The notes beneath the pieces were generated by a model, which had not been told where the DNA came from, did no database searches, and saw nothing but the letters and a program-made list of their open reading frames with translations. This document shows positions 33,145-46,299 of a stretch of DNA of 64,000 bases, in pieces. The position numbers were made by a program, and so were the translations under genes. Source of the DNA: Photobacterium sp. TY1-4 (lineage in GTDB: Bacteria; Pseudomonadota; Gammaproteobacteria; Enterobacterales; Vibrionaceae); the NCBI RefSeq assembly GCF_025398175.1, contig NZ_CP099734.1, forward strand, positions 1,364,001-1,428,000, written 5' to 3'. How positions within the stretch are numbered: position 1 is the stretch's first letter; each line of letters starts with the position of its first letter.

Positions 33145-33885
33145 TTAGGCCAATTTTTCAGGACGCGATCCGGCTTGGGGCAGGGAAGAGGATTGCAAGA
33201 AGGCACTGGTCAACTGTTGGAACAGCGCGTCCACGGCAGGTCGGGATTGCAGGTGTTCAAACAGCGGAGTATGTACGCTCGCCAGGATTCGTGCGTCGTG
33301 GTTGCAAATCTGATTGCACAGTTGCACCGGTTTGACGATTTCATCCATCTTGCCCTCAAGCAAAATACAGGCTTGCGAAAGGACAACCTGACCGCCGCCT
33401 TTTTTCAGCAATACGCGCTGCGCGGTCCCCACCACTTTTTTACCATCGATATTGAGATTGTATTCTCCATCGCAATACGAGCCGGGCGTGGCATGGACAT
33501 TCACCCTGACGCCCAGCGCTGCAAAGAAGTGACTCAGGACCTGACATAAGTTGAGATAGGCTGCTTTGATATCGTAAGGCTGGTTATCCGGCCAGTGATA
33601 AATATGGGAGAGATTAATAACACCTGGCTGTTGAGGGACAGGTGCCCCGCCGGTTGTTCGTGAAACCAGTTGCCAGCCAGCCTGGTTCAATGCGCTGGTG
33701 AGCTGGGGCGTCACCGGCCACTTCTTCCCCGCCGGCAGCACTAGGGTTGGTCGTTTTGCCTGCCATAACAAGAGCACCTGAGAGAGTTCATTCGATTGCA
33801 CCTGTTTCAACAATTCAGCTTCTTTATTGAACAGAGCTTCTGCGTCAATGCTGAGGTAGCGAATGAGTTTGTTTTTGGATGTCAT
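33145..33885 (-). CDS. Lipoate-protein ligase A-like (BPL/LplA catalytic domain)
   Basis: 246 residues. The catalytic-domain signature is present: SRTTGGAPVPQQPGVINLS corresponds to the RxTGGG(A)V(Y)H(D)xGN loop, and CDGEYNLNIDGKKVVGTAQR contains the Lys motif for acyl-adenylate binding. The conserved loop His is replaced (PVPQQPG), so it may be a divergent ligase. It could attach lipoate or octanoate to a carrier protein. It is not obviously part of the FHA/YcaO cluster, which ends in a terminator between the two. Confidence 0.75.
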   Translation of the reverse strand: MTSKNKLIRYLSIDAEALFNKEAELLKQVQSNELSQVLLLWQAKRPTLVLPAGKKWPVTPQLTSALNQAGWQLVSRTTGGAPVPQQPGVINLSHIYHWPDNQPYDIKAAYLNLCQVLSHFFAALGVRVNVHATPGSYCDGEYNLNIDGKKVVGTAQRVLLKKGGGQVVLSQACILLEGKMDEIVKPVQLCNQICNHDARILASVHTPLFEHLQSRPAVDALFQQLTSAFLQSSSLPQAGSRPEKLA

Positions 33886-33965
33886 AAGCCCTATCTACGC
33901 TATGTGCTGATGGATTCATGGTTGCATTAGTCGGTGGCTACTGACCCACGAAGTTCATTTATTGA

Positions 33966-33992
33966 GAAAAGGAGCCTTCTTGCTGGCTCCTA
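33966..33992 (-). terminator. Rho-independent terminator closing the YcaO-TfuA cluster
   Basis: On the minus strand AGGAGCC / GGCTCCT is followed by TTTCTC, about 30 bp after the FHA gene stop. It marks the distal end of the cluster. Confidence 0.75.
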
Positions 33993-34019: not shown

Positions 34020-35006
34020 CTACATCAGTTGCCTTGAATCCACTTCAAGGTTGTTCCCTTTAATCACTTGGTAGTCTTTGACGGCTAATCGGACTCGGCC
34101 CCGCTTTCGTTCAATCAGCAAAGGGGGGACCATGCCTTCAGATTGCAAAAGATCGGATAATTGCTTTCTTGCCCGGTGGATCTGGATATTGACGTGTGTC
34201 TCGGAGAGGCCAATGTCTTTCGTGAGTTGCTCCACCGAGCGCCAGCCTTGTTGGGATTCCGGGACTTGGTTTTTCAGATCTTCTCCTTTATAGCGGGCCA
34301 GCAGGGCGGTTAGGTAATGGTGGCTTCTTGCTTCACAATTGAAGGAGCGGCTACGATTCGACACAGTCAGTTCAGTCAGTTCCTCATCTGGGCTGATGTT
34401 GAAAATATAACAAAGCTCATTGTGGGGATTATCTGTGATGGCAATGGTTTCTTGTTCTTCGTTTGCTGCCCCTTTTAGTAGTTGCCACTGACGATGCGAA
34501 AATTCTAAGAGTTCGCCATCAGAGAGTTTAAAAGGATTGCTATCATTTAAGGTTTCACACATCCAGCTTCGCTCTGCCGTGTCGTAGAAAACGATGGTTT
34601 CCGGGGACTCTTCAGAGGGTAGAAAGTGGTAATTCTCCAATAAGATCGGCTCGACATCATCGACTGACCGCGCATCTTCTTTGATATAGGGAACGAGCAA
34701 ATCTCTCGGCGGATCAATATTCTCGGCAATAAATGTCGTATTGTGTTGGTGAGAAAAGCTGATGTGATCCCCCTTACTTAACGGATGTAACTTATTTGGG
34801 GTAATCGGTTGTCCGTTCACCCATACCCCGTTTTTGCTCAAGTCTCGCAAGAACCAATAGTGGCCATCCCACTCAACCAAGGCATGAAGCCTGGATATTT
34901 CCGGGCCATTTAGCACCGTATCAACCGCCGTCGATAAACGGCCAAACTTGTGAAAGGCTTTGAGAAAAATACGGTAGTGTGTGTTTGGGGTTGATAAGTA
35001 TGCCAT
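34020..35006 (-). CDS. FHA domain protein with C-terminal winged-helix-like domain
   Basis: 328 residues. An FHA domain occupies about residues 15-95 with all key positions: GR at 22-23, SRLH at 38-41 and the NG pairs at 59-60 and 64-65. It should therefore bind phosphothreonine. The last 80 residues (WRSVEQLTKDIGLSETHVNI, HRARKQLSDLL, IERKRGRVRLA) look like an OmpR-type winged helix. The protein is the last gene of the cluster, 86 bp after the 114-aa gene, with a hairpin between. The likely partner is the cluster's own Ser/Thr kinase. Domain calls are by pattern; the pairing is inference. Confidence 0.8.
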   Translation of the reverse strand: MAYLSTPNTHYRIFLKAFHKFGRLSTAVDTVLNGPEISRLHALVEWDGHYWFLRDLSKNGVWVNGQPITPNKLHPLSKGDHISFSHQHNTTFIAENIDPPRDLLVPYIKEDARSVDDVEPILLENYHFLPSEESPETIVFYDTAERSWMCETLNDSNPFKLSDGELLEFSHRQWQLLKGAANEEQETIAITDNPHNELCYIFNISPDEELTELTVSNRSRSFNCEARSHHYLTALLARYKGEDLKNQVPESQQGWRSVEQLTKDIGLSETHVNIQIHRARKQLSDLLQSEGMVPPLLIERKRGRVRLAVKDYQVIKGNNLEVDSRQLM

Positions 35007-35046
35007 GGGATTTCCTTTTACTATGGATGCCTAGAGACAATGGAGT

Positions 35047-35066
35047 CGCCTGCCAGCAGGCAGGCG
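35047..35066 (-). promoter_or_regulatory. Stable hairpin between the 114-aa gene and the FHA gene
   Basis: CGCCTGCC / GGCAGGCG is a perfect 8-bp stem with a four-base loop and no T run. It could be an mRNA processing or stability element that sets the level of FHA expression within the operon. Confidence 0.5.
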
Positions 35067-35092
35067 CTGTCCCGTACTGTTATTTGACAGCT

Positions 35093-35437
35093 TCAGTAGT
35101 GATACCGCTGCACATACTGAAGCTCTTCCTCAACAATGGTCAGATCAATCTGCTCCAGATTTTCCGCAAATCCTGCAGCCTGCTGACAAAGGTCATTGAT
35201 CGCCTGGGTCAATGCTGTTTCTGCCTGGTCTTTGCTCAGTGCATTAGTTTGCCATAGGTTGTGAAAAGCAATGGTTTCGGTCTCAGAAGGCTCTACCGGC
35301 CAGAGCGTTGTCAGTTGCCACCCCGTTTTTGTCATAATTGACGGGAAGACTTCCTGTGCCAATGCTTTATAGCGTGTCTCATCTTTTGTGTTGATTGACA
35401 GGGATACAACCAGGTCAATCGGGTGTTCCTTATTCAT
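35093..35437 (-). CDS. 114-residue protein of the YcaO-TfuA cluster (unknown, NIPSNAP-like pattern)
   Basis: I do not recognise a family with certainty. The segment MTKTGWQLTTLWPVEPSETE, followed by TIAFHNLWQTN, resembles the ferredoxin-like dimeric alpha/beta barrel of NIPSNAP proteins. The rest is helical and acidic and ends YVQRYHY. The ATG overlaps the end of tfuA by eight bases, with GGAG correctly spaced, so its synthesis is coupled to TfuA. It could be an accessory protein or a substrate of the YcaO-TfuA enzyme; nothing distinguishes these. Confidence 0.75.
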   Translation of the reverse strand: MNKEHPIDLVVSLSINTKDETRYKALAQEVFPSIMTKTGWQLTTLWPVEPSETETIAFHNLWQTNALSKDQAETALTQAINDLCQQAAGFAENLEQIDLTIVEEELQYVQRYHY

Positions 35438-36776
35438 CTTTTGCTTTCTCCTGTTGACAATAATGGTATTGATACTCTTTGAGCACTGCGGTTCGCATTT
35501 CTTCCAGAGAATCAAACCCGCAAATTTTCCAATAGTCTTCAACGTGCTTTGGTTTTTCTTGCCGGAGGCGAACGGAAAAAAACCATTGCCACAGTTCTTC
35601 CTCGTTGATCCCAAGTTCTGACAAGCTTGCTGCGGTCATGGTCTTTTTGCTGTTAATTCGGGCCTGGTATGCGGCAAAGCTCTGGTCAAGCTTCAGGATA
35701 TCCAGGAGTTCGCTGTCGATACGTTCATCGATACTGTGGAGCCAGGCAAGCAATCCCTGACGTTGAACTAACGCATGGAACTCTTCCATGTTGATGTGTT
35801 CAGCGTTGAGCCACTGGCCGAGCTTGTCGAAATCAATTTCAGGTCCGGCACATGCCGAGCGTTGATACGCAAGCTCAAGCAAGACGCGTTGAATGATGTC
35901 TTTATTCAAATCAGGTGCGTATTTTTGGGCTTCGCGCAGCGCGGATTTTCGGCAAATGGCTTGTTGTCGACGTTGAAAAAAAGTGCCATCCAGTTTCGTT
36001 TCTCGCCAAAGATCCTGAAGCTCGCAGATTTGGCTATTCGATGTTTGCGTATAAGTGACATCGGCGACTAACCGCTCCCAGGCATCGGTCGGCGTGAAAC
36101 TGTAGTGTACCTGTTTGGCCGGCAGTTGCTCGATGTCGATGGCTTGCAATGTTTTGAGCAGGCTGATGGCGTCCAACCTTTTGAGATCGACGGTGTCTGT
36201 TTCAATATGGCGTTCTAGTTCACACCATTGATGATGGCTGAGTATTTCCTTCGCCATGGACAACAGACACGAATAGTTTCTTTCCGGATACCATACATTC
36301 TTTAGCGCTTGGGTCAGCAGTTTTGCTTGTTGGGGAGCGATAATCTGTTTATCCACTGCCGTATTAAGGGTTGCTCGGATGTTGACCATCGGGATGGATG
36401 CGGCGATATAGCCAGCCTCGGCCGGTGCATGGACCAGTGCGACTTCGTCGTCATCTTCGAAATCGCCGGAGGCGAAACTTTCGAAGACCTTGCCATAGCC
36501 TTCCATGCCAAAATGCTCAAGCTCAGCTGCCCGTAGGGCGCCCATACTGCTGCAACCAAAAACATGGATGCCTTTTGACATGGCATACAGGATTTCCTTG
36601 TGCCAGACAGCAGGAACACTTTCAAAATAACCGTCAATAATGACGATCATTTTGGGGTTGTCGAGTGTCGCCAGATAAACGTCCCCCTGCTTTGCCGGCG
36701 GACGGTACGAAGCAGTGAGCAGTGGCGCTGCATCTTTCTGAGCTAAACTCGGGCCACTAAAAACAATGATGCTCAT
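35430..36776 (-). CDS. TfuA-like protein (YcaO partner)
   Basis: 448 residues. The TfuA core is at the N-terminus: VFSGPSL (5-11), YRPPAKQGDVYLA (24-36), IIDGYFESVPAVWHKEIL (46-63) and GCSSMGALRAAEL (74-86). In known systems TfuA acts with YcaO in backbone thioamidation, probably handling the sulfur. The C-terminal 200 residues are an additional helical region with no recognised function. Its ATG overlaps the ycaO stop (ATGA), giving tight coupling and implying a stoichiometric pair. Confidence 0.9.
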   Translation of the reverse strand: MSIIVFSGPSLAQKDAAPLLTASYRPPAKQGDVYLATLDNPKMIVIIDGYFESVPAVWHKEILYAMSKGIHVFGCSSMGALRAAELEHFGMEGYGKVFESFASGDFEDDDEVALVHAPAEAGYIAASIPMVNIRATLNTAVDKQIIAPQQAKLLTQALKNVWYPERNYSCLLSMAKEILSHHQWCELERHIETDTVDLKRLDAISLLKTLQAIDIEQLPAKQVHYSFTPTDAWERLVADVTYTQTSNSQICELQDLWRETKLDGTFFQRRQQAICRKSALREAQKYAPDLNKDIIQRVLLELAYQRSACAGPEIDFDKLGQWLNAEHINMEEFHALVQRQGLLAWLHSIDERIDSELLDILKLDQSFAAYQARINSKKTMTAASLSELGINEEELWQWFFSVRLRQEKPKHVEDYWKICGFDSLEEMRTAVLKEYQYHYCQQEKAKDE

Positions 36777-37978
36777 GCGTTGTCCTCATCAATAATCGCC
36801 TGCTGTTTCGCACGTGCGCGTTGACCCATGATGTAGCCGGGGGTTTCGTGGATCCCTTCTAAGCGTGGGACGAGTACCTTGACAACCGGGATTTGAAACT
36901 CATTTTTTTCTAGATTGATAACGGCAACCTGAGAGACGCCGACCTGTTGCAACTTGTCCAGGAGCAGCGAAATGTCCTGTTCAAAGTTACTGTGGTGCCA
37001 GGATTGGATGTCTGCGAAGTCTTTTTGTCCGTCGTCCGGGCCAGATGCCTGAAGATTCGTATGTCGGGTGTATGAATTGGTATCAATGTCGTCCCGGGAA
37101 CCTGAGATCAGAGTCAATCGGGTTTGCGCTGCTTCGGTCAGCGCCCGCAGCAATGCGATATTTTTGCAGGGGTGTGTGCCGGAACCGATGGCGGCATAGG
37201 CCGGACCACTGGCATTCTGAGCCGGGCGGATTTTGCAGAGAAAACTGGGGATGTCGATGTCTGAGGTGATGTCCCAGATCTGGATTTGCATCTGCGCCTG
37301 TCGAAATTTGGCGATGACACTCAAACAAGCGGGATCATTGACGGTGTCGAGTTTGATTTGATGATTGCTATCTTGGTTACGTTCAAGTTGCCAAAGGGCC
37401 AAAGCATCGCGTTCAATGACTTCGCACAACCCGTGTACCACAGCTTCGTGGTAGGTGTTGCCGGATGCCAAGCCGTTGGTACTCATGACAAATGACCCGC
37501 TCCCCGTCGGTAAGGGGAGCGAGAAGTTGCAATGGACCACTTCGTACGGCACAAAGAGCGAGTGTCCTTGGAGCAGGTCATGCCCTTCAATCCAGAGCAA
37601 TTTCCGGGTGTCACTAAATTGGCTAAAAGACAACTTCGGCAGGTAGGATACGTCGATGACGTGCTCCTTTTTACACAACTCGGCATAACTGGCAAGCCGT
37701 AAAGGGTGCTCAATATGTTCACCGTGATAGGTCTCAATCGCTTCCATAACCCCGGAAACCTTCGCTGATATGAGATCCAATCCTTTTCCCTGGGAGACCG
37801 AAACCGAGCTTGAATCCGGCCGGCAAACGGTGACGACAGGGACGCCAATTCGATCTAACCCGGTCACATTCGCGACTCGAGTGATCCCCATCTGTAAGAG
37901 CCAGGGGGATATTCTGTCAAGCGTCGACTGCGGCGAACATTGCCTGTGTGTTCCCAGTTGGTGTCCTTTTTGCGTCAT
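36773..37978 (-). CDS. YcaO-domain cyclodehydratase/thioamide synthetase
   Basis: 401 residues. YcaO ATP-binding motifs are all present: SQGKG (62-66), SGVMEAIETYHGE (75-87), TNGLASGNTYHEAV (167-180), GLCEVIERDA (183-192) and RALTEAAQTRL in the C-terminal half. The family activates a peptide backbone amide with ATP; with a TfuA partner the usual product is a thioamide, otherwise an azoline. The ATG at 37978 is preferred to an upstream TTG because GGAG lies ahead of it. No E1-like partner or flavin dehydrogenase is nearby. Confidence 0.92.
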   Translation of the reverse strand: MTQKGHQLGTHRQCSPQSTLDRISPWLLQMGITRVANVTGLDRIGVPVVTVCRPDSSSVSVSQGKGLDLISAKVSGVMEAIETYHGEHIEHPLRLASYAELCKKEHVIDVSYLPKLSFSQFSDTRKLLWIEGHDLLQGHSLFVPYEVVHCNFSLPLPTGSGSFVMSTNGLASGNTYHEAVVHGLCEVIERDALALWQLERNQDSNHQIKLDTVNDPACLSVIAKFRQAQMQIQIWDITSDIDIPSFLCKIRPAQNASGPAYAAIGSGTHPCKNIALLRALTEAAQTRLTLISGSRDDIDTNSYTRHTNLQASGPDDGQKDFADIQSWHHSNFEQDISLLLDKLQQVGVSQVAVINLEKNEFQIPVVKVLVPRLEGIHETPGYIMGQRARAKQQAIIDEDNA

Positions 37979-38032
37979 AGTGTTCTCTTTTTCTCCGAAA
38001 TTTTGGATGACTCTGCTCAAAGGGCATCGTGA

Positions 38033-39010
38033 TTACTTCAGAAAACTCTGTAAATTGGCCACCATACAAACGGCGCCGAGTGAGTGGGTGTCGACGTTGA
38101 TATCTTTTGGATTTAACGCGCCAACCTGTACACCGGCGTTCTTGTAGTAGCGAGACAGTGACTGGGAGGTGAGTGTGTCGTTCTCCTCGACGATCTTCTG
38201 GATGCGAGCTGCTTGCTTATCAGGTTCAACATCATGAAGGGTTAGTTTCAACTCAAGAATCGTGTGTTTAAGTTCGTTCAGATCTCTATCCTGTCCGCGC
38301 TCCAGATCATACTGTGTCAGTTGGTCCAGGGCTTCCTTGCTCAGGTAGTGAATGTGGTAAGGGTAGAACAGATTGTCATCTCTAACGTGCAGAGGATTCT
38401 TATAAGAGACGATATATAAATTGTCTTCAACGGCCTCACTGAGCTCTTTTAAAGATGTGACCGGTATATTCCGATCATCTTTGCGAGGTGTTAAATTGTC
38501 AGGTACCAGCTTCCCGATCGGTTGATCAAGAATAACGTCGGTTTTCGTTTCTGTACGACTCGGTGGGTTCAGCCGGCTCATTTGCAGTGCTCTTAAATCA
38601 AGCAGGTAACCGGGTTTTAAATCTGTTTTGTCGATCCCGGCCGGGCAGCGGGCGGTGCTGAGGTTCCACGGGATCACTTTGGTCAGCGCTGGGCTGGTCA
38701 GGTTAGCGGGGCGCAGGCCATTGCCCGTTTGGAAGAAAAAGTGGTGATCGGTTTCGCTGTAGCACCACTCGAGCTTAATGGCTTTTTCGTTACTTTTTTC
38801 GTTATCTTTTTTACTGTTTTCTTCGTTGTTTGCTTCGCTGCCTTTTTTAATATCTTTCGTACCAGCGTAATCGTCATAATTGATCAGCGTCGCGCGGGTG
38901 CCTTCTTTACGTATCACGTATATATCTTGCGAGCGCAGTGTGAGTTGACCATTTTCATTAACGTATGAATCTATTTTCTCGATGTAAGAATTATCTGTTT
39001 GAGATGACAT
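38033..39010 (-). CDS. Unknown 325-residue protein between the kinase and YcaO genes
   Basis: Not recognised. The N-terminal 50 residues look folded, then comes a Lys/Glu/Asn-rich low-complexity linker (KKGSEANNEENSKKDNEKS). A middle region with a few aromatic motifs (LYIVSYKNPLHVRDDNLFYP) follows, then a charged helical stretch. The end has KNAGVQVGALNP and THSLGAVCMVANLQ with one Cys. Neither signal peptide nor membrane helix is seen. It sits 17 bp after the kinase gene and 54 bp before ycaO, so it belongs to the operon. It is a candidate substrate (long leader, short C-terminal core) or adaptor; this is a guess. Confidence 0.7.
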   Translation of the reverse strand: MSSQTDNSYIEKIDSYVNENGQLTLRSQDIYVIRKEGTRATLINYDDYAGTKDIKKGSEANNEENSKKDNEKSNEKAIKLEWCYSETDHHFFFQTGNGLRPANLTSPALTKVIPWNLSTARCPAGIDKTDLKPGYLLDLRALQMSRLNPPSRTETKTDVILDQPIGKLVPDNLTPRKDDRNIPVTSLKELSEAVEDNLYIVSYKNPLHVRDDNLFYPYHIHYLSKEALDQLTQYDLERGQDRDLNELKHTILELKLTLHDVEPDKQAARIQKIVEENDTLTSQSLSRYYKNAGVQVGALNPKDINVDTHSLGAVCMVANLQSFLK

Positions 39011-39027
39011 AATTATTCCTTTTGATG

Positions 39028-42000
39028 TTAAAGATAACCTAACCTTTTGCTGTGATAGAGCGCGCTTGCCAATGGCGCCAGGCTGCGCGATTCGTTTGCT
39101 GAACGTTGCTGATGAAGTGAAATCACCTCCTTGAGGGGGGTTGTAATGGTTTCCGGTAACCGTTGCTGAGTTGAATCAATGAGTGACTCAACGACAGTCA
39201 TTAAGTGTGGCCAGGTGGTAACGTCTACGGCTTCCAGGTGTTGTTGGGTGAGGAGATCAAGCTCAACCAACAGCGCGAGCCATTGCAACGGGAAAGGGAA
39301 CTGGCTTGCGAGGCCTTGCCAAGTGCGATGGCTCAGTGCGACCAGTTTGAATGCCCGACGTGATTTGTGCTGCTTATAGGCGACCCAGGCTTGGTTAGCA
39401 TGTGCGATCGCAATGTAGTCGTCCATTGCGGCCAGTTTCGCGCTGACCATCGCCTGCTTGCTGTAGCTGAGCGTGCCGTCGATGTCCCCTAGCTGACGAT
39501 GCAGGATGGTCAGATAGGTCAGGCATCGTGCCTGCAGCGTTCTGTCACTCTGTTGTTTGGCCAGTTTCAGGGCTTGTTGCAGCCTTGGACCAGCCTGGTC
39601 GTAGCTCTGGCTGAAGTAGAGGGTAAAGCCGAGTACAAACAGGCAGTAGGCTTGTAAATCAGCATCATCTGTCTGTGTTGATGTGTGATAGGCTTTCTCG
39701 GCGAGCATCACATCTGTGTGGTTGAGGTTGTACTGTGTTTGCCTGAACCGCAAGTGCAGCGCGTTGTCGTAAAACTTAGCCTGAGTGTAAGCGTCGCCTG
39801 CTTGCTCGAGCATCGGTTCGATTTTGTCAAGTAACGCTGTCATTAAGTTGATGTCATTTCGCCAATAACAGACATACAACTTTGCGCTGAGTACATCGAG
39901 CTGAGTCTGTTGCCATGTTTCGTTTTGCGCCGGGTGTTGGGCAAGTGCTTGCTCTGCTTTGTCGTATGCCGCCATGGCGCGATGGTGATTGTGGTGTGTT
40001 TCCCAGGATTTGCCGTTTTTGAGGTGGATTTGTGCCGTTAGGATCTGATCCGTTTCGGCAAGCTCAGATAGTGCAAGATCATAGTGTTGTCGGGCTAACT
40101 CGTGCTGCGCCCGTCGAACCAGATTGTCAGCAAGCCCTAAGTGTGCCGAGACCTTGTGCGCTAAAACGGTCGTATCATTGATTACTTCACCAACCTGAGG
40201 CGACTGGTCATGTTGCTTGGTGAGCTGAAGGGCCGTTTCGTAATAATGAATTGCATCATCGATAATGAATGCTTTCGAGGATTGTTGCCCGGCGTGCAAG
40301 TAGTAGGGGATAGCTCGCTCAGGTTGATTGGCTTTCATCCAGTGCCAGGCTAATCGTTCGGGGGCATATCCAGTTTGGTTTGTGGCAAAATCCTCCAGAG
40401 CGAGGGCAATGTGTTTATGTAAAGCGATAATATTAGCTGCACTTTCGTAAGCTGCTTCTCGGATCATCGCATGTTTAAAAATATACCGGTTGCCATTGAC
40501 TCTGCGCTGCACATAGATGATTCCTGCTTTTTGTAATTCATCTAAATCCCCGAGAATTTGAGTTTCATCTTTTTCAGATGCAGCAAACAAGAGATGATCG
40601 TCAAACTTCCGTCCAATTGCAGCGGCTAGCTGGGCGGTATCTTTCGCGAAGGTCAGGTTATCGAGACGCTGTTGCAGTGACTCTCTTAAGGTAACCGGAA
40701 TACTGATTTCAGGATCTCGGCCGATGAACTCGATCTTGCCATTGATCTTGCAAACCAACTCTTGTTTTTGAATATTGCTCACCAGCTCCTCAAGAAACAG
40801 AGGGATCCCATCACATCGCTCAATTAATAAACGCTGTACAGCTTCACTCACCGTCTGATCGCCGAACAGGCTCTCGATCATGTGGCGGCAGTTTGTTTCA
40901 GTGAGCTTACCCAGTTGTATTTGCTTAAAGCCTGCTTGTTTTAAGTGGCTTGGTAGTGGTTTTCGCGAGGTGTTGAGCCAAATGTGATTCCCATGAAGGA
41001 ATGGCTCAGAATTCACAAAGTATTCGATAAACTCTGGCGTTGTCGGATCGGACCAATGCAGATCTTCACAGATAAAGAGTTGGCTTGATGGATGCTCTGG
41101 AGATGCTGTTGTAGATTGAGGTTGGCACAGCAGGTGAGCAAGGATCTGAAACAGGCAATCTTTTTGCTGTTTAGGAGACATTGCTGCCAGAATACGCTGC
41201 TGTTGCTGAACTGCGGCTTCATCCGCTGTTGACTCCAGATTCAACCAGGCGCGTAGTACGCAAAGGCTTTTTGATTGCGTCTTCGAATCCAGGTTACATT
41301 CTGCGATGATCTGTTCAAGTTTGGCGGTGGCGTCGGTTGCGTTAAAGCTGTCAAGTTCATATCGGGCTTTAATCAGTTTGAGGATCGGGAATAGTGCATT
41401 GTTCCTGTATTCGGGTAAGCACTGAGCAACCCAGTGTGGCGTCGCCCACAACTGTTCTTGGACTTCAAATACAAGCCTGGATTTTCCGATCCCTGCCTCT
41501 CCATATAAATGCACCAGCCTCCGCAGTTCTTGTTGACCGTAGGATGCTGTCCCCTCAGCTTCGTGAGTAAAGTTGAGTAGTGCCTCAAACATGTCTTCGC
41601 GGCCGATGAAAGCACTACGCTTCCAGGTGCCGCGCAGAAAGCCAAAAGCTTCAGATACCCGCTCACTGAGCAATAAGTACTGAGGCGTATCAAGGGCGTG
41701 AAGCGGGCCGGAAGATTTGTTAGACCGAAAGATAAGATGATTTTCAAGGATCGTTTTGGCTTGCTCTGAGCATAGAATCTGACTTGGCTCAGCCAGCCTG
41801 GATAAGCGTAATGCGTCATTGGCGATTTTGCCTTCCGGTGAGTTCCCGGAAAAGCCCTGCATAATCCCGATTTCGATGCCGACTTTTAGCTCACTGACCA
41901 AGCCATGGTTCTGAAATAGCTGACCTTTTTTACCATTGAGATTACTGGAAATATCTAAAGCAGCACGAGCGCACAAGCGACTGTCATTATCACTGAGTGT

Positions 42001-43203
42001 GGGGTAGCCAAAATAAAACAGTAGGGTGTCCCCCAGGGTACCGACATGATAAGCACCGTACCGGATTGCGATATCGATACATTGATGGAGCTGATCCGCA
42101 TGGATCATGTCAATGACATCCTGGCTGATGGCCGGGGGAACGTGGTGATGACGCGGCTGGGCTCGGTAAGTGGAGAGAATCACACTGAGCGCTGCAATTT
42201 GTTTGCGTTCCGTGATTTTGGAATAAACAGGGGAGCGCGTATTGATTTGCGTTTGGTTCTCAAATTCCGGGCTTGATGGCTTGGCACAGGCTCGCTGATT
42301 GGAAACGACCAGATCTGAAAAGTTGAGTTTCCTGAATTCCTGATAGAGCTCAACCGTGCTGCCGGGTCTTTGCAGGGGCTTCTTGTTCAGTACCCGGCGG
42401 AATAAATGTGCGGATTGGTGGCTGGCCAATGGCCCCAGCGGGATATTGGATGTACTTAACTGTTGGTGAAATACGGCAGCCATGCTGTTCCCGGACAGGG
42501 TCGGGACGCCGGTGAGGCATTCGATAAACACCAGCCCCCATATGTATAGATCTGTCTGAGGCAAAGCGGGTTCTCCCCGCAGTTGTTCGGGAGCGCTGTA
42601 AGTGGGGGTTCCCAGTGTTTCCTGGGTGAGCGTCAGGGTTTTGTAATCCGTCTGCCTCACATCATTTTTCAACGTTCCAATGCCGAAGTCGAGTACCTTC
42701 ACATGCAGTTTTGCCCCGACTTGATAGAGCATAATGTTCGCCGGTTTGATATCCCGGTGGATCACGCCATTCTCATGGGCATGCGTTAGTGCATCTAACA
42801 CACAAGCCATGACATCCGCTGCATCTGACGGGGTGAACGGCCCATGCTTTTGGAGATACTCTTTAAGAGTCAGACCGTCGATAAACTCATAGACAGCGTA
42901 AAGAATATCGCTGCCTTGCTGACCTTTATCGAGAAGTGACACGACATTCGGGTGGTTTAAACGGCGAATCAGGTCGCACTCGCGATGGAAACGCTCGACT
43001 TGGCGTAGTTTTTTATCAGGATTATCGGTTTCAAGGAGCGTCAAAAACTTAATCGCAACAAACTTTTGTGTCCGGCGATGCAGTGCTTTGTAAACTTGGC
43101 CAAATCCCCCTTCACCGATTTTCTCGAGTAACTCGTATTCGGCAGATTTGAAGCGAGAGGTGATCAGCTGCTGGCTCTGACGTTCCTTTTCCATGTATTC
43201 CAT
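39028..43203 (-). CDS. Giant Ser/Thr kinase with cyclase-like, AAA ATPase and TPR regions (TOMM kinase/cyclase-type)
   Basis: 1391 residues. A Hanks-type kinase covers about 22-295: P-loop GEGGFGQV, Lys52, HRDIKPAN with Asp151, DFG at 172-174 and GTPTYSAPEQ. Residues about 335-485 match a class III nucleotide cyclase homology domain (HVGTLGDTLLFYFGYP, LKVGIEIGIMQG), but the first metal-binding Asp is absent (IAALSVILS), so it is probably catalytically dead. A STAND/AAA ATPase follows with Walker A GEAGIGKS (568-575) and HWSDPTTPEF. The remaining 450 residues are TPR-like helices. It is the first gene of the cluster. Proteins of this architecture have been described with TOMM (azole) loci. ATG 43194 is an alternative start. 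Confidence 0.88.
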   Translation of the reverse strand: MEYMEKERQSQQLITSRFKSAEYELLEKIGEGGFGQVYKALHRRTQKFVAIKFLTLLETDNPDKKLRQVERFHRECDLIRRLNHPNVVSLLDKGQQGSDILYAVYEFIDGLTLKEYLQKHGPFTPSDAADVMACVLDALTHAHENGVIHRDIKPANIMLYQVGAKLHVKVLDFGIGTLKNDVRQTDYKTLTLTQETLGTPTYSAPEQLRGEPALPQTDLYIWGLVFIECLTGVPTLSGNSMAAVFHQQLSTSNIPLGPLASHQSAHLFRRVLNKKPLQRPGSTVELYQEFRKLNFSDLVVSNQRACAKPSSPEFENQTQINTRSPVYSKITERKQIAALSVILSTYRAQPRHHHVPPAISQDVIDMIHADQLHQCIDIAIRYGAYHVGTLGDTLLFYFGYPTLSDNDSRLCARAALDISSNLNGKKGQLFQNHGLVSELKVGIEIGIMQGFSGNSPEGKIANDALRLSRLAEPSQILCSEQAKTILENHLIFRSNKSSGPLHALDTPQYLLLSERVSEAFGFLRGTWKRSAFIGREDMFEALLNFTHEAEGTASYGQQELRRLVHLYGEAGIGKSRLVFEVQEQLWATPHWVAQCLPEYRNNALFPILKLIKARYELDSFNATDATAKLEQIIAECNLDSKTQSKSLCVLRAWLNLESTADEAAVQQQQRILAAMSPKQQKDCLFQILAHLLCQPQSTTASPEHPSSQLFICEDLHWSDPTTPEFIEYFVNSEPFLHGNHIWLNTSRKPLPSHLKQAGFKQIQLGKLTETNCRHMIESLFGDQTVSEAVQRLLIERCDGIPLFLEELVSNIQKQELVCKINGKIEFIGRDPEISIPVTLRESLQQRLDNLTFAKDTAQLAAAIGRKFDDHLLFAASEKDETQILGDLDELQKAGIIYVQRRVNGNRYIFKHAMIREAAYESAANIIALHKHIALALEDFATNQTGYAPERLAWHWMKANQPERAIPYYLHAGQQSSKAFIIDDAIHYYETALQLTKQHDQSPQVGEVINDTTVLAHKVSAHLGLADNLVRRAQHELARQHYDLALSELAETDQILTAQIHLKNGKSWETHHNHHRAMAAYDKAEQALAQHPAQNETWQQTQLDVLSAKLYVCYWRNDINLMTALLDKIEPMLEQAGDAYTQAKFYDNALHLRFRQTQYNLNHTDVMLAEKAYHTSTQTDDADLQAYCLFVLGFTLYFSQSYDQAGPRLQQALKLAKQQSDRTLQARCLTYLTILHRQLGDIDGTLSYSKQAMVSAKLAAMDDYIAIAHANQAWVAYKQHKSRRAFKLVALSHRTWQGLASQFPFPLQWLALLVELDLLTQQHLEAVDVTTWPHLMTVVESLIDSTQQRLPETITTPLKEVISLHQQRSANESRSLAPLASALYHSKRLGYL

Positions 43204-43383
43204 TGGTAATTTAATAAAGCGAGGTGTTCAATAAAAGCCAGTATAAATCAAAACAAATATGCAGATCGATGCATTTGTCAATTTTGCGACTTGGAGGAGG
43301 ATCACAAAGAAAAGTCTGGGATCAGTGGTAAAAGCACCCCTGAAGTCGTGCAGATGTGTTCAGTTTTGGTGGAAGTATTGGGG

Positions 43384-43483: not shown

Positions 43484-43516
43484 GAAAAAATTGCCGCTAT
43501 CTCAAAGATAGCGGCA
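43484..43516 (-). terminator. Rho-independent terminator of the rhlE-like gene
   Basis: TTGCCGCTATCT / AGATAGCGGCAA with a CAA-type loop and a T run on the minus strand. Confidence 0.9.
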
Positions 43517-43535
43517 AGACGGAATGATTCAGAAA

Positions 43536-45450: not shown

Positions 45451-45537
45451 GCCCTGGTGGTGGAATTGGTAGACACAAGGGATTTAAAATCCCTCGACGT
45501 TCGCGTTGTGCCGGTTCAAGTCCGGCCCGGGGCACCA
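45451..45537 (+). tRNA. tRNA-Leu (TAA)
   Basis: An 87-nt class II tRNA with a long variable arm, anticodon TAA in the loop between GGGAT and ATCCC, and an encoded CCA end. First of four tRNAs. Confidence 0.95.
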
Positions 45538-45549
45538 TCATGCAAGATT

Positions 45550-45625
45550 GCGACATTAGCTCAGTTGGTAGAGCGCGACCTTCCCAAGGTTGAGGTCACG
45601 AGTTCGAACCTCGTATGTCGCTCCA
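45550..45625 (+). tRNA. tRNA-Gly (CCC)
   Basis: 76 nt, acceptor GCGACAT / ATGTCGC, anticodon loop TTCCCAA, T-loop AGTTCGAAC and a CCA end. It is close in sequence to the GCC isoacceptor two genes downstream. Confidence 0.92.
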
Positions 45626-45628
45626 TTT

Positions 45629-45702
45629 GGCGCGTTGGCAGAGTGGCTATGCAGCGGATTGCAAATCCGTGGACCTCGGTTCGACTCCGGGACGCGCCTC
45701 CA
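45629..45702 (+). tRNA. tRNA-Cys (GCA), second copy
   Basis: Identical over its length to the copy at 326-399. The following 20-base spacer and the start of the next tRNA-Gly are also the same, which marks a segmental duplication. Confidence 0.95.
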
Positions 45703-45722
45703 TTCTCTCTTGAGAATATTAT

Positions 45723-45798
45723 GCGACACTAGCTCAGTTGGTAGAGCGCAACCTTGCCAAGGTTGAGGTCACGAGTTCGAACCTCGTGTGTCGCTCCA
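45723..45798 (+). tRNA. tRNA-Gly (GCC)
   Basis: 76 nt with anticodon loop TTGCCAA, normal T-arm and CCA end. It is the only intact source for the four partial units that follow it and for the pseudo-tRNA at 420-510. Confidence 0.95.
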
Positions 45799-45806
45799 AA
45801 TTCAGA

Positions 45807-45836
45807 GAAGCCCGGTAGAAATGCCGGGGCTTTTTG
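45807..45836 (+). terminator. Rho-independent terminator after tRNA-Gly(GCC)
   Basis: GCCCGG / CCGGGC stem with TTTTT. The same hairpin recurs with small changes after every unit of the downstream array. Confidence 0.8.
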
Positions 45837-45840
45837 CATA

Positions 45841-46299
45841 TAGAGCACAACCTTGCCAAGGTTGGGGTCACGCCTGGTCCCTTGAAGATCGGGAACCTCG
45901 TGTGTTGCTCCAAATTCAGAGAATCCCCGGTAGAAATACCGGGGCTTTTTGCATGTAGAGCACAACCTTGGCAAGGTTGAGGTCACGCCTGGTTCCTTGA
46001 AGATCGGGAACCTCGTGTGTCGCTCCAAATTTAGAGAAGCCCCGGTAGTAATGCCGGGGGCTTTTTGCATATAGAGCACAACCTTACCAAGGTTGAGGTC
46101 ACGCCTGGCTCCTTGAAGATCGGGAACCTCGTGTGTCGCTCCAAGTTTAGAAAGGCCCCGGTAGAGGTACCGGGGCTTTTTGCATGTAGAGCACAACCTT
46201 GCCAAGGTTGAGGTCACGCCTGGCTCCTTGAAGATCGGGAACCTCGTGTGTCGCTCCAAATTCAGAGAAGCCCCGGTAGAAATGCCGGGGATTTTTGCT
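45841..46299 (+). repeat. Four tandem tRNA-Gly-like/terminator units of ~115 bp
   Basis: Units start at 45841, 45956, 46072 and 46187 with TAGAGCACAACC. Each lacks the 5' acceptor strand and most of the D-arm but keeps the anticodon arm (anticodon positions GCC, GGC, ACC, GCC). The T-arm is replaced by a longer hairpin around CCTTGAAGATCGGGAACC. The acceptor 3' strand and CCA (GTGTCGCTCCA, or TGTTGCTCCA in the first) are retained, and a GCCCCGG / CCGGGGC terminator with TTTTTGC ends each unit. The layout recalls the tyrT repeats of Escherichia coli, where 3' tRNA pieces recur downstream of the gene. Confidence 0.88.

Follow-up and report, generated by a model that had tools for sequence, protein, structure and literature searches.

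Why would a YcaO-TfuA pair share an operon with a giant protein kinase and an FHA protein? We addressed this question in a 64,000-nucleotide stretch of the genome of Photobacterium sp. TY1-4 (NZ_CP099734.1, positions 1,364,001 to 1,428,000), which we call the window. It contains six co-directional open reading frames (ORFs), all on the minus strand from 43203 to 34020: kin, g2, YcaO, TfuA, g5, and the FHA gene. YcaO and TfuA overlap by 4 bases and TfuA and g5 by 8 bases, as an earlier note made from the sequence alone had described. That note had also recognized the kinase, YcaO, TfuA, and FHA domains, and the family matches listed below bear it out. We found that the N-terminal 960 residues of kin, together with the FHA protein, form a shell that is common with thiazole/oxazole-modified microcin (TOMM) kinase/cyclase loci, and that the content between them is exchanged as a cassette. 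We lean, with somewhat better than even confidence, toward a kinase-linked signaling operon that resembles the systems for ribosomally synthesized and post-translationally modified peptides (RiPPs): YcaO and TfuA would modify g2, the C-terminus of kin would be matched to g2, and the FHA protein would read the phosphorylation. The chemistry and the signaling are what we infer.

39028..43203, minus strand: kin, 1391 aa; Ser/Thr kinase, probable pseudo-cyclase, AAA (STAND-type) ATPase, and TPR-like C-terminus; assigned to the TOMM_kin_cyc family
42355..43137, minus strand: kinase domain of kin, residues 23-283 (PF00069, 7.4e-50)
41002..41610, minus strand: AAA_16 ATPase domain of kin, residues 532-734 (PF13191, 3.4e-10)
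39031..40323, minus strand: residues 961-1391 of kin, the C-terminal region; similarity confined to g2-type kinases
38033..39010, minus strand: g2, 325 aa; new protein family, proposed substrate or precursor for YcaO-TfuA
38102..38131, minus strand: motif VQVGALNPKD of g2, residues 294-303 (alignment of 22 g2 proteins)
38036..38068, minus strand: C-terminal 11-mer CMVANLQSFLK of g2, residues 315-325; candidate core or tag, by conservation rank
36773..37978, minus strand: YcaO, 401 aa, thioamidation-like (PF02624, 3.8e-80)
35430..36776, minus strand: TfuA, 448 aa; core plus a C-terminal extension of about 235 aa (PF07812, 1.9e-46)
35093..35437, minus strand: g5, 114 aa; possibly ABM-like, accessory (Pfam rows below cut-off)
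34020..35006, minus strand: FHA protein, 328 aa; FHA domain (2.2e-17), FHA-like middle domain, and possible winged helix-turn-helix (wHTH)
34038..34412, minus strand: residues 199-323 at the C-terminal end of the FHA protein; order of elements in the structure model like that of a winged helix

Recurrence of the gene order

A profile of g2 identified the protein in 14 of 329 Vibrionaceae genomes, at 15 loci (G268 has two; G and L numbers are our handles for genomes and loci). A sixteenth locus, L121, is in a genome from another family (G769), for a total of 16 loci in 15 genomes. At all 16 loci, kin directly precedes g2 on the same strand (in G037, the contig is 4.8 kb and kin is cut), and the gap between them is 12–27 nt at the 14 loci where it was measured. 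YcaO and TfuA follow g2 at 15 of the 16 loci. The FHA gene is in the cluster at 12 of the 15 readable loci (all but G037), and all 15 genomes with g2 encode an FHA protein; in this lineage, the kinase and FHA genes accompany YcaO-TfuA, as the earlier note had supposed. The order kin-g2-YcaO-TfuA exceeds what chance neighbors would give, because it is found again within several unlike chromosomal contexts (flanks are common only to loci that are closely related).

The earlier note had named as its own counter-case a YcaO-TfuA pair that occurs without the kinase and FHA genes in most relatives. At large, this is what we found: in a sample of the class, TfuA is present in 13 of 369 genomes, and in the stretches fetched from the 12 genomes besides the window's (four of them contigs of 4.9–12.1 kb), none had a full kinase or g2 near TfuA. 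Within the lineage the opposite holds. TfuA is present in 16 of the 329 Vibrionaceae genomes, and 14 of these are the genomes with the g2/kinase cluster; G019 and G246 have TfuA frames of 227–233 aa in other settings.

Two other YcaO-TfuA pairs have unusual neighbors. In another gammaproteobacterial family, a cyclase/ATPase/TPR protein without a kinase domain, with a SAM-like start by eye, overlaps the pair (L077, 328-6334). At L082 (3351-3956), a 201-aa protein, perhaps SLATT-like, in which two putative membrane spans can be seen by eye, lies directly upstream of the pair. The YcaO tree, built without near-copies (L031, L039, and L042), the 200-aa L081 piece, and weaker paralogues, places L077 and L082 among the g2-type enzymes with support of 89/85, which is not strong. 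In view of this tree, a single origin for g2 is possible.

Exchange of the cassette in sister loci

In the window's genus, the FHA protein is found in 7 of 52 genomes. Five of these are the g2 genomes, and the other two are G025 and G050 (the chance of all five g2 genomes falling among the seven is 8e-6, uncorrected for kinship). The gene order in G025 and G050 is kin (1350 and 1348 aa), a 264-aa protein, a 403- or 398-aa protein (amidohydrolase-like by eye, with no NCBIfam row), a 734- or 753-aa YcaO, and FHA. The 264-aa protein of G025, the only one run, passes TIGR03795, the NHLP-Burk model for BMA_0021-family TOMM precursors (91.5 bits versus a cut-off of 41). The G025 YcaO is closest to TIGR03604 (azole cyclodehydratase), with a score of 186.2 bits that is below the cut-off; we call the YcaO proteins of G025 and G050 "azole-type" from this likeness and from their size. 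The cassette is then either g2 with YcaO and TfuA (and g5), or a BMA_0021-type precursor with a larger, azole-type YcaO.

Stretches around FHA genes from a sample of the order show related arrangements. Four of them (L134-L136 and L139) encode a YcaO of 708–713 aa, and the one from L135, the only one run, scores 184.7 bits against TIGR03604, below 219.25. Precursor-type proteins are present at L135 (24.3 bits against TIGR03795, below the cut-off of 41) and, by likeness, at L134. We labeled L133 as azole by synteny with its genus mates, as its 12.4-kb contig shows no YcaO. At L137 and L138, kin is accompanied by two unknown proteins, a GGDEF protein, and FHA, with no YcaO, which is possibly a third type of cassette.

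Some side observations concern these sister loci. A 501-aa protein with CxxCH near its end and a 233-aa unknown protein lie beside the TOMM-type kinase at L137 (5972-8232) and L138 (6040-8300). GGDEF diguanylate cyclase genes are directly upstream of FHA at L135 (1452-1979) and L137 (8411-9475), hinting at a cyclic di-GMP output. Repetitive reading frames are next to the sister cassette at L163 (14984-17866, which was read) and L164 (17065-19998); perhaps these are the antisense reading of a gene for a long repeat protein.

The domains of kin

By its score, kin belongs to the existing TOMM kinase/cyclase family, which the earlier note had overlooked. It reaches 716.3 bits against TIGR03903, the NCBIfam equivalog "TOMM system kinase/cyclase fusion protein" (cut-off 705.75), and it is the sole protein of the window's genome above that cut-off. 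The match spans only positions 2-966 of the 1267 in the profile; for the kinase of G025, the match spans positions 2-1259, at 970 bits. All 21 kinases that we aligned keep GEGGFG, VAIK, HRDIKP, DFG, GxxGxGK[ST], and the Walker B ED. The TPR rows in Pfam are all below their cut-offs, and the cyclase-like stretch is also under its Pfam cut-off (PF00211, 15.3 versus 21.9 bits). The metal site of a cyclase follows a two-Asp rule. The second Asp is kept, but none of the 21 aligned kinases has Asp at the expected first position (it is Thr in the window's kin and Glu in five others). This part of kin is therefore probably a pseudo-cyclase.

A kinase C-terminus specific to g2-type loci

We compared the kinases using only ORFs of over 1200 aa, which left 21: 15 from loci with g2 (g2-type, including the window's) and six others. 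The first 960 residues are common to both groups, whereas alignment over the last ~430 is limited to the 15 g2-type kinases. Residues 961-1391 of the window's kin are 27–44% identical to the 14 other g2-type kinases (39–44% for ten of them and 27–30% for four) and 12–17% identical to the six others. Across residues 1-300, 301-520, 521-960, and 961-1391, the identity to the G025 kinase is 70, 52, 44, and 17%. The g2-type kinase of L034 has similar values over the first three segments (70, 47, and 48%), and 39% over the last. For L121, whose N-terminal part groups with L133, L135, L137, and the L037-L040 type, the values are 57, 37, 38, and 43%. Even the most distant g2 types (L037-L040) have 48–49, 32–33, 37–38, and 27–30%.

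In blastp, the C-terminal region of the window's kin matched the four g2 types tested at E values of 9e-43 to 3e-103 and the non-g2 types tested at 0.07 or worse; the ATPase region matched all eight types. Aligning the C-terminus of the g2 type to each of three other types with hhalign gave probabilities of under 4%. On the trees, the g2 label changes at least twice on the N-terminal part of kin and at least three times on FHA. The G025 kinase is the sister of eight g2-type kinases, and the G025 FHA protein lies inside the g2 clade, beside the window's (support of 86/71, which is not strong). Near-copies were left out of these trees (L042, L031, L039, L138, and L164 for kin; L164, L042, L031, and L039 for FHA), and the FHA tree also leaves out L141 and L142 (stop in frame) and L144 and the second L123 ORF (weak).

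g2 in the precursor slot

Neither Pfam nor NCBIfam gives a row for g2 at E <= 1. The g2 family is 242–347 aa long in the genomes read, and it was not found in collections of plasmids, phages, and viral contigs. By analogy, g2 occupies the position that a TOMM precursor has in relatives, because the same kin/FHA frame holds a TIGR03795-type precursor in G025 and G050. On the same analogy, the six genes make up a variant RiPP-type system; the earlier note had missed the role of this slot. In the window, the gaps between kin and g2 and between g2 and YcaO are 17 and 54 nt, and therefore there is no room for a separate precursor gene ahead of TfuA.

VQxGAxNPxD is present in all 22 aligned g2 proteins, and each of them terminates with C-x-[VI]-A-N-L-x-[ST]-F and a short remainder; a linker of 9–36 residues separates VQxGAxNPxD from the C-terminal 11-mer. 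In the window's g2, the last 11 residues rank 2 of 315 segments by conservation, and the VQ motif ranks 14 of 316. In the structure model, the per-residue confidence (pLDDT) is under 50 at residues 304-314 and 321-325. A conserved C-terminal segment on a variable stretch is a trait of RiPP precursors, and g2 has it. An 11-residue suffix is tabulated for TIGR03795 (PMC2887384), and the agreement with the length of the g2 tail may be a coincidence.

YcaO, TfuA, and g5

The better start for YcaO is the ATG at 37978 (401 aa) instead of the TTG at 38020, from which the family-model scores were computed. In NCBIfam, YcaO and TfuA both match archaeal models for McrA thioamidation best: YcaO scores 262.5 bits against TIGR03266 (cut-off 365) and TfuA scores 222.5 bits against NF033432 (cut-off 235.2). 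Judged by these scores, the two are related to the McrA enzymes but are not those enzymes. Adjacent proteins with YcaO and TfuA domains, which mark a thioamidation pair, are present. The fused cyclodehydratase of TIGR03604/TIGR03882 is not: YcaO reaches 125.2 bits against TIGR03604 (cut-off 219.25) and is a 401-aa stand-alone protein, where the cut-off alone is not decisive, as the G025 enzyme also falls under it. The closest solved chain to YcaO is MJ1094 (6pe3), and that to TfuA is the TfuA structure 6xp8, which aligns to residues 4-213. The genome holds two PF02597 (ThiS) matches, which may include MoaD. It also has a second YcaO, a 643-aa frame (G000:C1:815087-816085), which from its length is perhaps of the uL16 type.

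For g5, Pfam gives two rows, both under the cut-offs, and NCBIfam gives none at E <= 1; the gene is present at 8 of the 15 readable g2 loci. Its homologue at L030 matches PF03992 (ABM-like) at 0.0013, which is below the cut-off. No transporter, protease, or immunity gene was recognized in the operon with Pfam and NCBIfam, in agreement with the earlier note.

The FHA protein

Residues G22, R23, H41, N59, and G60 are invariant in 43 aligned FHA proteins, and R39 is nearly so; these are the phospho-threonine-binding positions of FHA domains. Structural matches mainly span residues 1-99. In the structure model, the DSSP order of residues 199-323 is three strands, three helices, and strands, and judging from this model the protein may end in a DNA-binding-like (wHTH) domain, which had been overlooked.

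The FHA family is wider than g2. A protein search gave 71 homologues, with names including Photobacterium, Vibrio, Shewanella, and Pseudoalteromonas, and in a sample of the order the protein is present in 26 of 394 genomes (E <= 1e-20). We took 27 stretches from 23 of these 26 genomes (all but the window's own, G333, and G938, the last of which had partial hits). An ORF that matches the kin profile is present in 19 of the 27 stretches and absent from 8, a frequency that stands without a background rate from random 20-kb regions. At L134 the match is only a piece of the ATPase part, cut by the start of the region. Kin-sized kinases are present in five of the stretches (L121, L133, L135, L137, and L138).

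Boundaries and surroundings of the operon

43491..43517, minus strand: terminator past the upstream helicase gene; 12-pair stem and T-run; the operon begins downstream
33970..33991, minus strand: hairpin past the FHA gene, possible operon terminator; stem listed by the scan for the plus strand only, with TTTCTC next on the minus strand

The strong terminator at 43517-43491 divides kin from the upstream helicase gene. At the other end, where the earlier note had placed one terminator for all six genes, the hairpin at 33991-33970 has a good stem, but its T-run on the minus strand is under the scan threshold; that it is the operon's one terminator is plausible. Small minus-strand ORFs lie beside the operon, one of 25 aa before kin (43228-43305) and one of 24 aa after FHA (33845-33919), and they are possibly small peptides or chance. 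Farther upstream, a tandem array at 45779-46298 (a 115-bp unit, 4.5 copies, 91% match) overlaps the final member of a set of four tRNA genes (Leu, Gly, Cys, and Gly; 45451-45798). Each unit holds a hairpin-like GCCCCGG...CCGGGGC, followed by T.

Proposed mechanism and alternatives

In the mechanism that we propose, YcaO and TfuA would take sulfur from a ThiS-type carrier encoded elsewhere and install a thioamide, or a backbone change related to it, in g2. The likeliest site would be close to the conserved C-terminal end of g2, either in VQxGAxNPxD or in the last 11 residues. Kin would bind g2 or modified g2 through its cassette-specific C-terminal region, and binding together with ATP use by the AAA domain would switch the kinase on. 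Autophosphorylation and/or phosphorylation of a partner would follow, and the phospho-threonine would be bound by the FHA protein, which may be a transcription factor and would change gene expression. Export would not be needed. Several of the steps have precedents. Thioamidation of McrA, a large protein, needs YcaO and TfuA (PMC5589413), and folded uL16 is thioamidated by the YcaO of E. coli (PMC13063428). In settings that are not rich in sulfide, thioamide-forming YcaO enzymes tend to rely on TfuA and a thiocarboxylated ThiS homologue (PMC13063428). Lastly, the kinase PknH acts on the FHA regulator EmbR (PMC4601284).

A number of observations weigh against this proposal. The C-termini of the non-g2 kinases differ from each other as well (those of L133 and L135 are alike, at 1.6e-12, and G025 is unlike both, with E = 4.4 to L135), and because of this, the C-terminus of kin could simply be fast-evolving. 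One g2 locus, L034 (G268:C2), is kin-g2-FHA, and the other locus of the same genome, L035 (C1), is kin-g2-YcaO-TfuA without FHA; at L034, modification would depend on the enzymes of L035 or would be dispensable. FHA is outside the cluster at L035, L036, and L037 (3 of the 15 readable loci), and three g2 genomes carry an FHA protein that is not beside g2, in G141 and G004 (other replicon; about 19 kb off) and in G037 (another short contig). The gap between g2 and YcaO is up to 120 nt at some other loci, and the 24–25-aa flanking ORFs mean that a very small precursor may lie outside the six genes. Residues 101-120 and 131-140 of g2 are about as conserved as its tail, and hhalign saw no homology between g2 and the TIGR03795 precursor profile (probability 0.06%). 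In the FHA protein, a profile test of the putative wHTH against Trans_reg_C domains gave 3.3% versus 2.7% for the reversed control, which is not significant.

The strongest competitor, which we nevertheless consider unlikely, is that g2 is an adaptor or effector of the kinase instead of a substrate, and that YcaO and TfuA modify another protein (the kinase itself or a housekeeping protein). g2 is slightly tighter with kin (16 of 16 loci) than with YcaO-TfuA (15 of 16), the kinase has the g2-type C-terminus even at L034, without YcaO, and the target of the E. coli YcaO is a ribosomal protein (PMC13063428). But in G025 and G050 the place of g2 is taken by the TOMM precursor, the only locus without YcaO is in a genome whose other g2 locus includes it, and the conserved tail of g2 is on a variable linker, all of which fit a substrate better. 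We give a lower probability to a secreted, bacteriocin-like thioamidated RiPP, with the N-terminal part of g2 as its leader or with an overlooked tiny precursor, with genes for export and cleavage elsewhere, and with the kinase and FHA protein only controlling production. The sister locus does carry a precursor of the BMA_0021 "TOMM bacteriocin" family, the last 11 residues of g2 would equal the TIGR03795 suffix in length (PMC2887384), and two 24–25-aa ORFs flank the operon on its strand; yet a leader of ~290 residues would be unusual, and the operon has no recognized gene for transport, proteolysis, or immunity.

The earlier note had also raised a role in defense, for which we found no positive support. 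We consider it improbable that the operon is a conflict system, anti-phage or other, with an ATPase-kinase that is set off by phage entry. The distribution of the locus is patchy, with 14 of 329 Vibrionaceae genomes and different settings, and the kinase domain has matches among the PADLOC kinases, for instance PD-T4-6 (5.5e-67), but none of the other five proteins has a PADLOC match at E <= 0.001, g2 was not found in the plasmid, phage, and viral-contig collections, and no toxic effector was recognized. That an unrelated kinase operon just happens to be beside a thioamidation pair is very hard to believe: such pairs do occur without these kinases elsewhere in the class sample, but the same order is found in several settings and the cluster is missing from only two of the 16 Vibrionaceae genomes that have TfuA.

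Returning to the kinase-linked signaling operon, we can speculate about a more general idea, which we hold only tentatively: that a backbone-modified protein is an intracellular signal. Thioamidated or, at sister loci, azole-bearing precursors would be ligands of a STAND-type Ser/Thr kinase whose C-terminal sensor is exchanged with the precursor cassette, and the FHA regulator would read the output. If this is true, RiPP chemistry is an interchangeable input module of a phospho-relay and not a secreted antibiotic.

Comparison with known systems

In 2010, Haft et al. drew attention to a large kinase next to TOMM clusters (PMC2887384). We found no functional study of it, and no paper that joins YcaO with FHA or YcaO-TfuA with a protein kinase, in a literature search that had most subscription papers outside its reach. 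In that search, the identifier TIGR03903 was not found and the name of the model appeared in a soil metagenome paper; TfuA, YcaO, and Vibrio together led to a Legionella genome paper. In a survey of TfuA clusters (PMC8120280), the words "kinase," "FHA," and "Vibrio" are absent from the main text. The locus shows one kinase/FHA shell combined with two modification sets, and the kinase has a C-terminus that goes with only one of the two; this makes the role of the TOMM kinase directly testable. If g2 is the substrate, it would add a protein-sized target of thioamidation in bacteria and a possible signaling role for such chemistry.

Compared to the TOMM kinase/cyclase systems (PMC2887384), the operon in the window has the same kinase family, above its cut-off, a precursor-slot gene directly after the kinase, and a YcaO-family enzyme downstream; the FHA partner is shared with G025 and G050 of the same genus. 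It differs in that it has g2, TfuA, and a stand-alone YcaO instead of a TIGR03795 precursor and a fused cyclodehydratase, and in that the match of kin to TIGR03903 ends before the C-terminal part of the model. With the YcaO-TfuA thioamidation systems (McrA and the thioviridamide-type RiPPs; PMC5589413, PMC8120280), it has in common the overlapping ycaO-tfuA pair, for which the McrA models are the best matches. Here the scores are below the equivalog cut-offs, TfuA has a long C-terminal extension, and the proposed substrate is from a new family. As with the E. coli YcaO and uL16 (PMC13063428), the window's YcaO is proposed to act on a protein and not on a short peptide, but E. coli has no TfuA in this system and a ribosomal target, and the window's genome has its separate second YcaO. 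In PknH-EmbR of Mycobacterium (PMC4601284), an FHA transcription factor is under a Ser/Thr kinase; in the window's protein, the FHA domain is N-terminal, the putative DNA-binding-like part is C-terminal, and there is an extra FHA-like domain in the middle.

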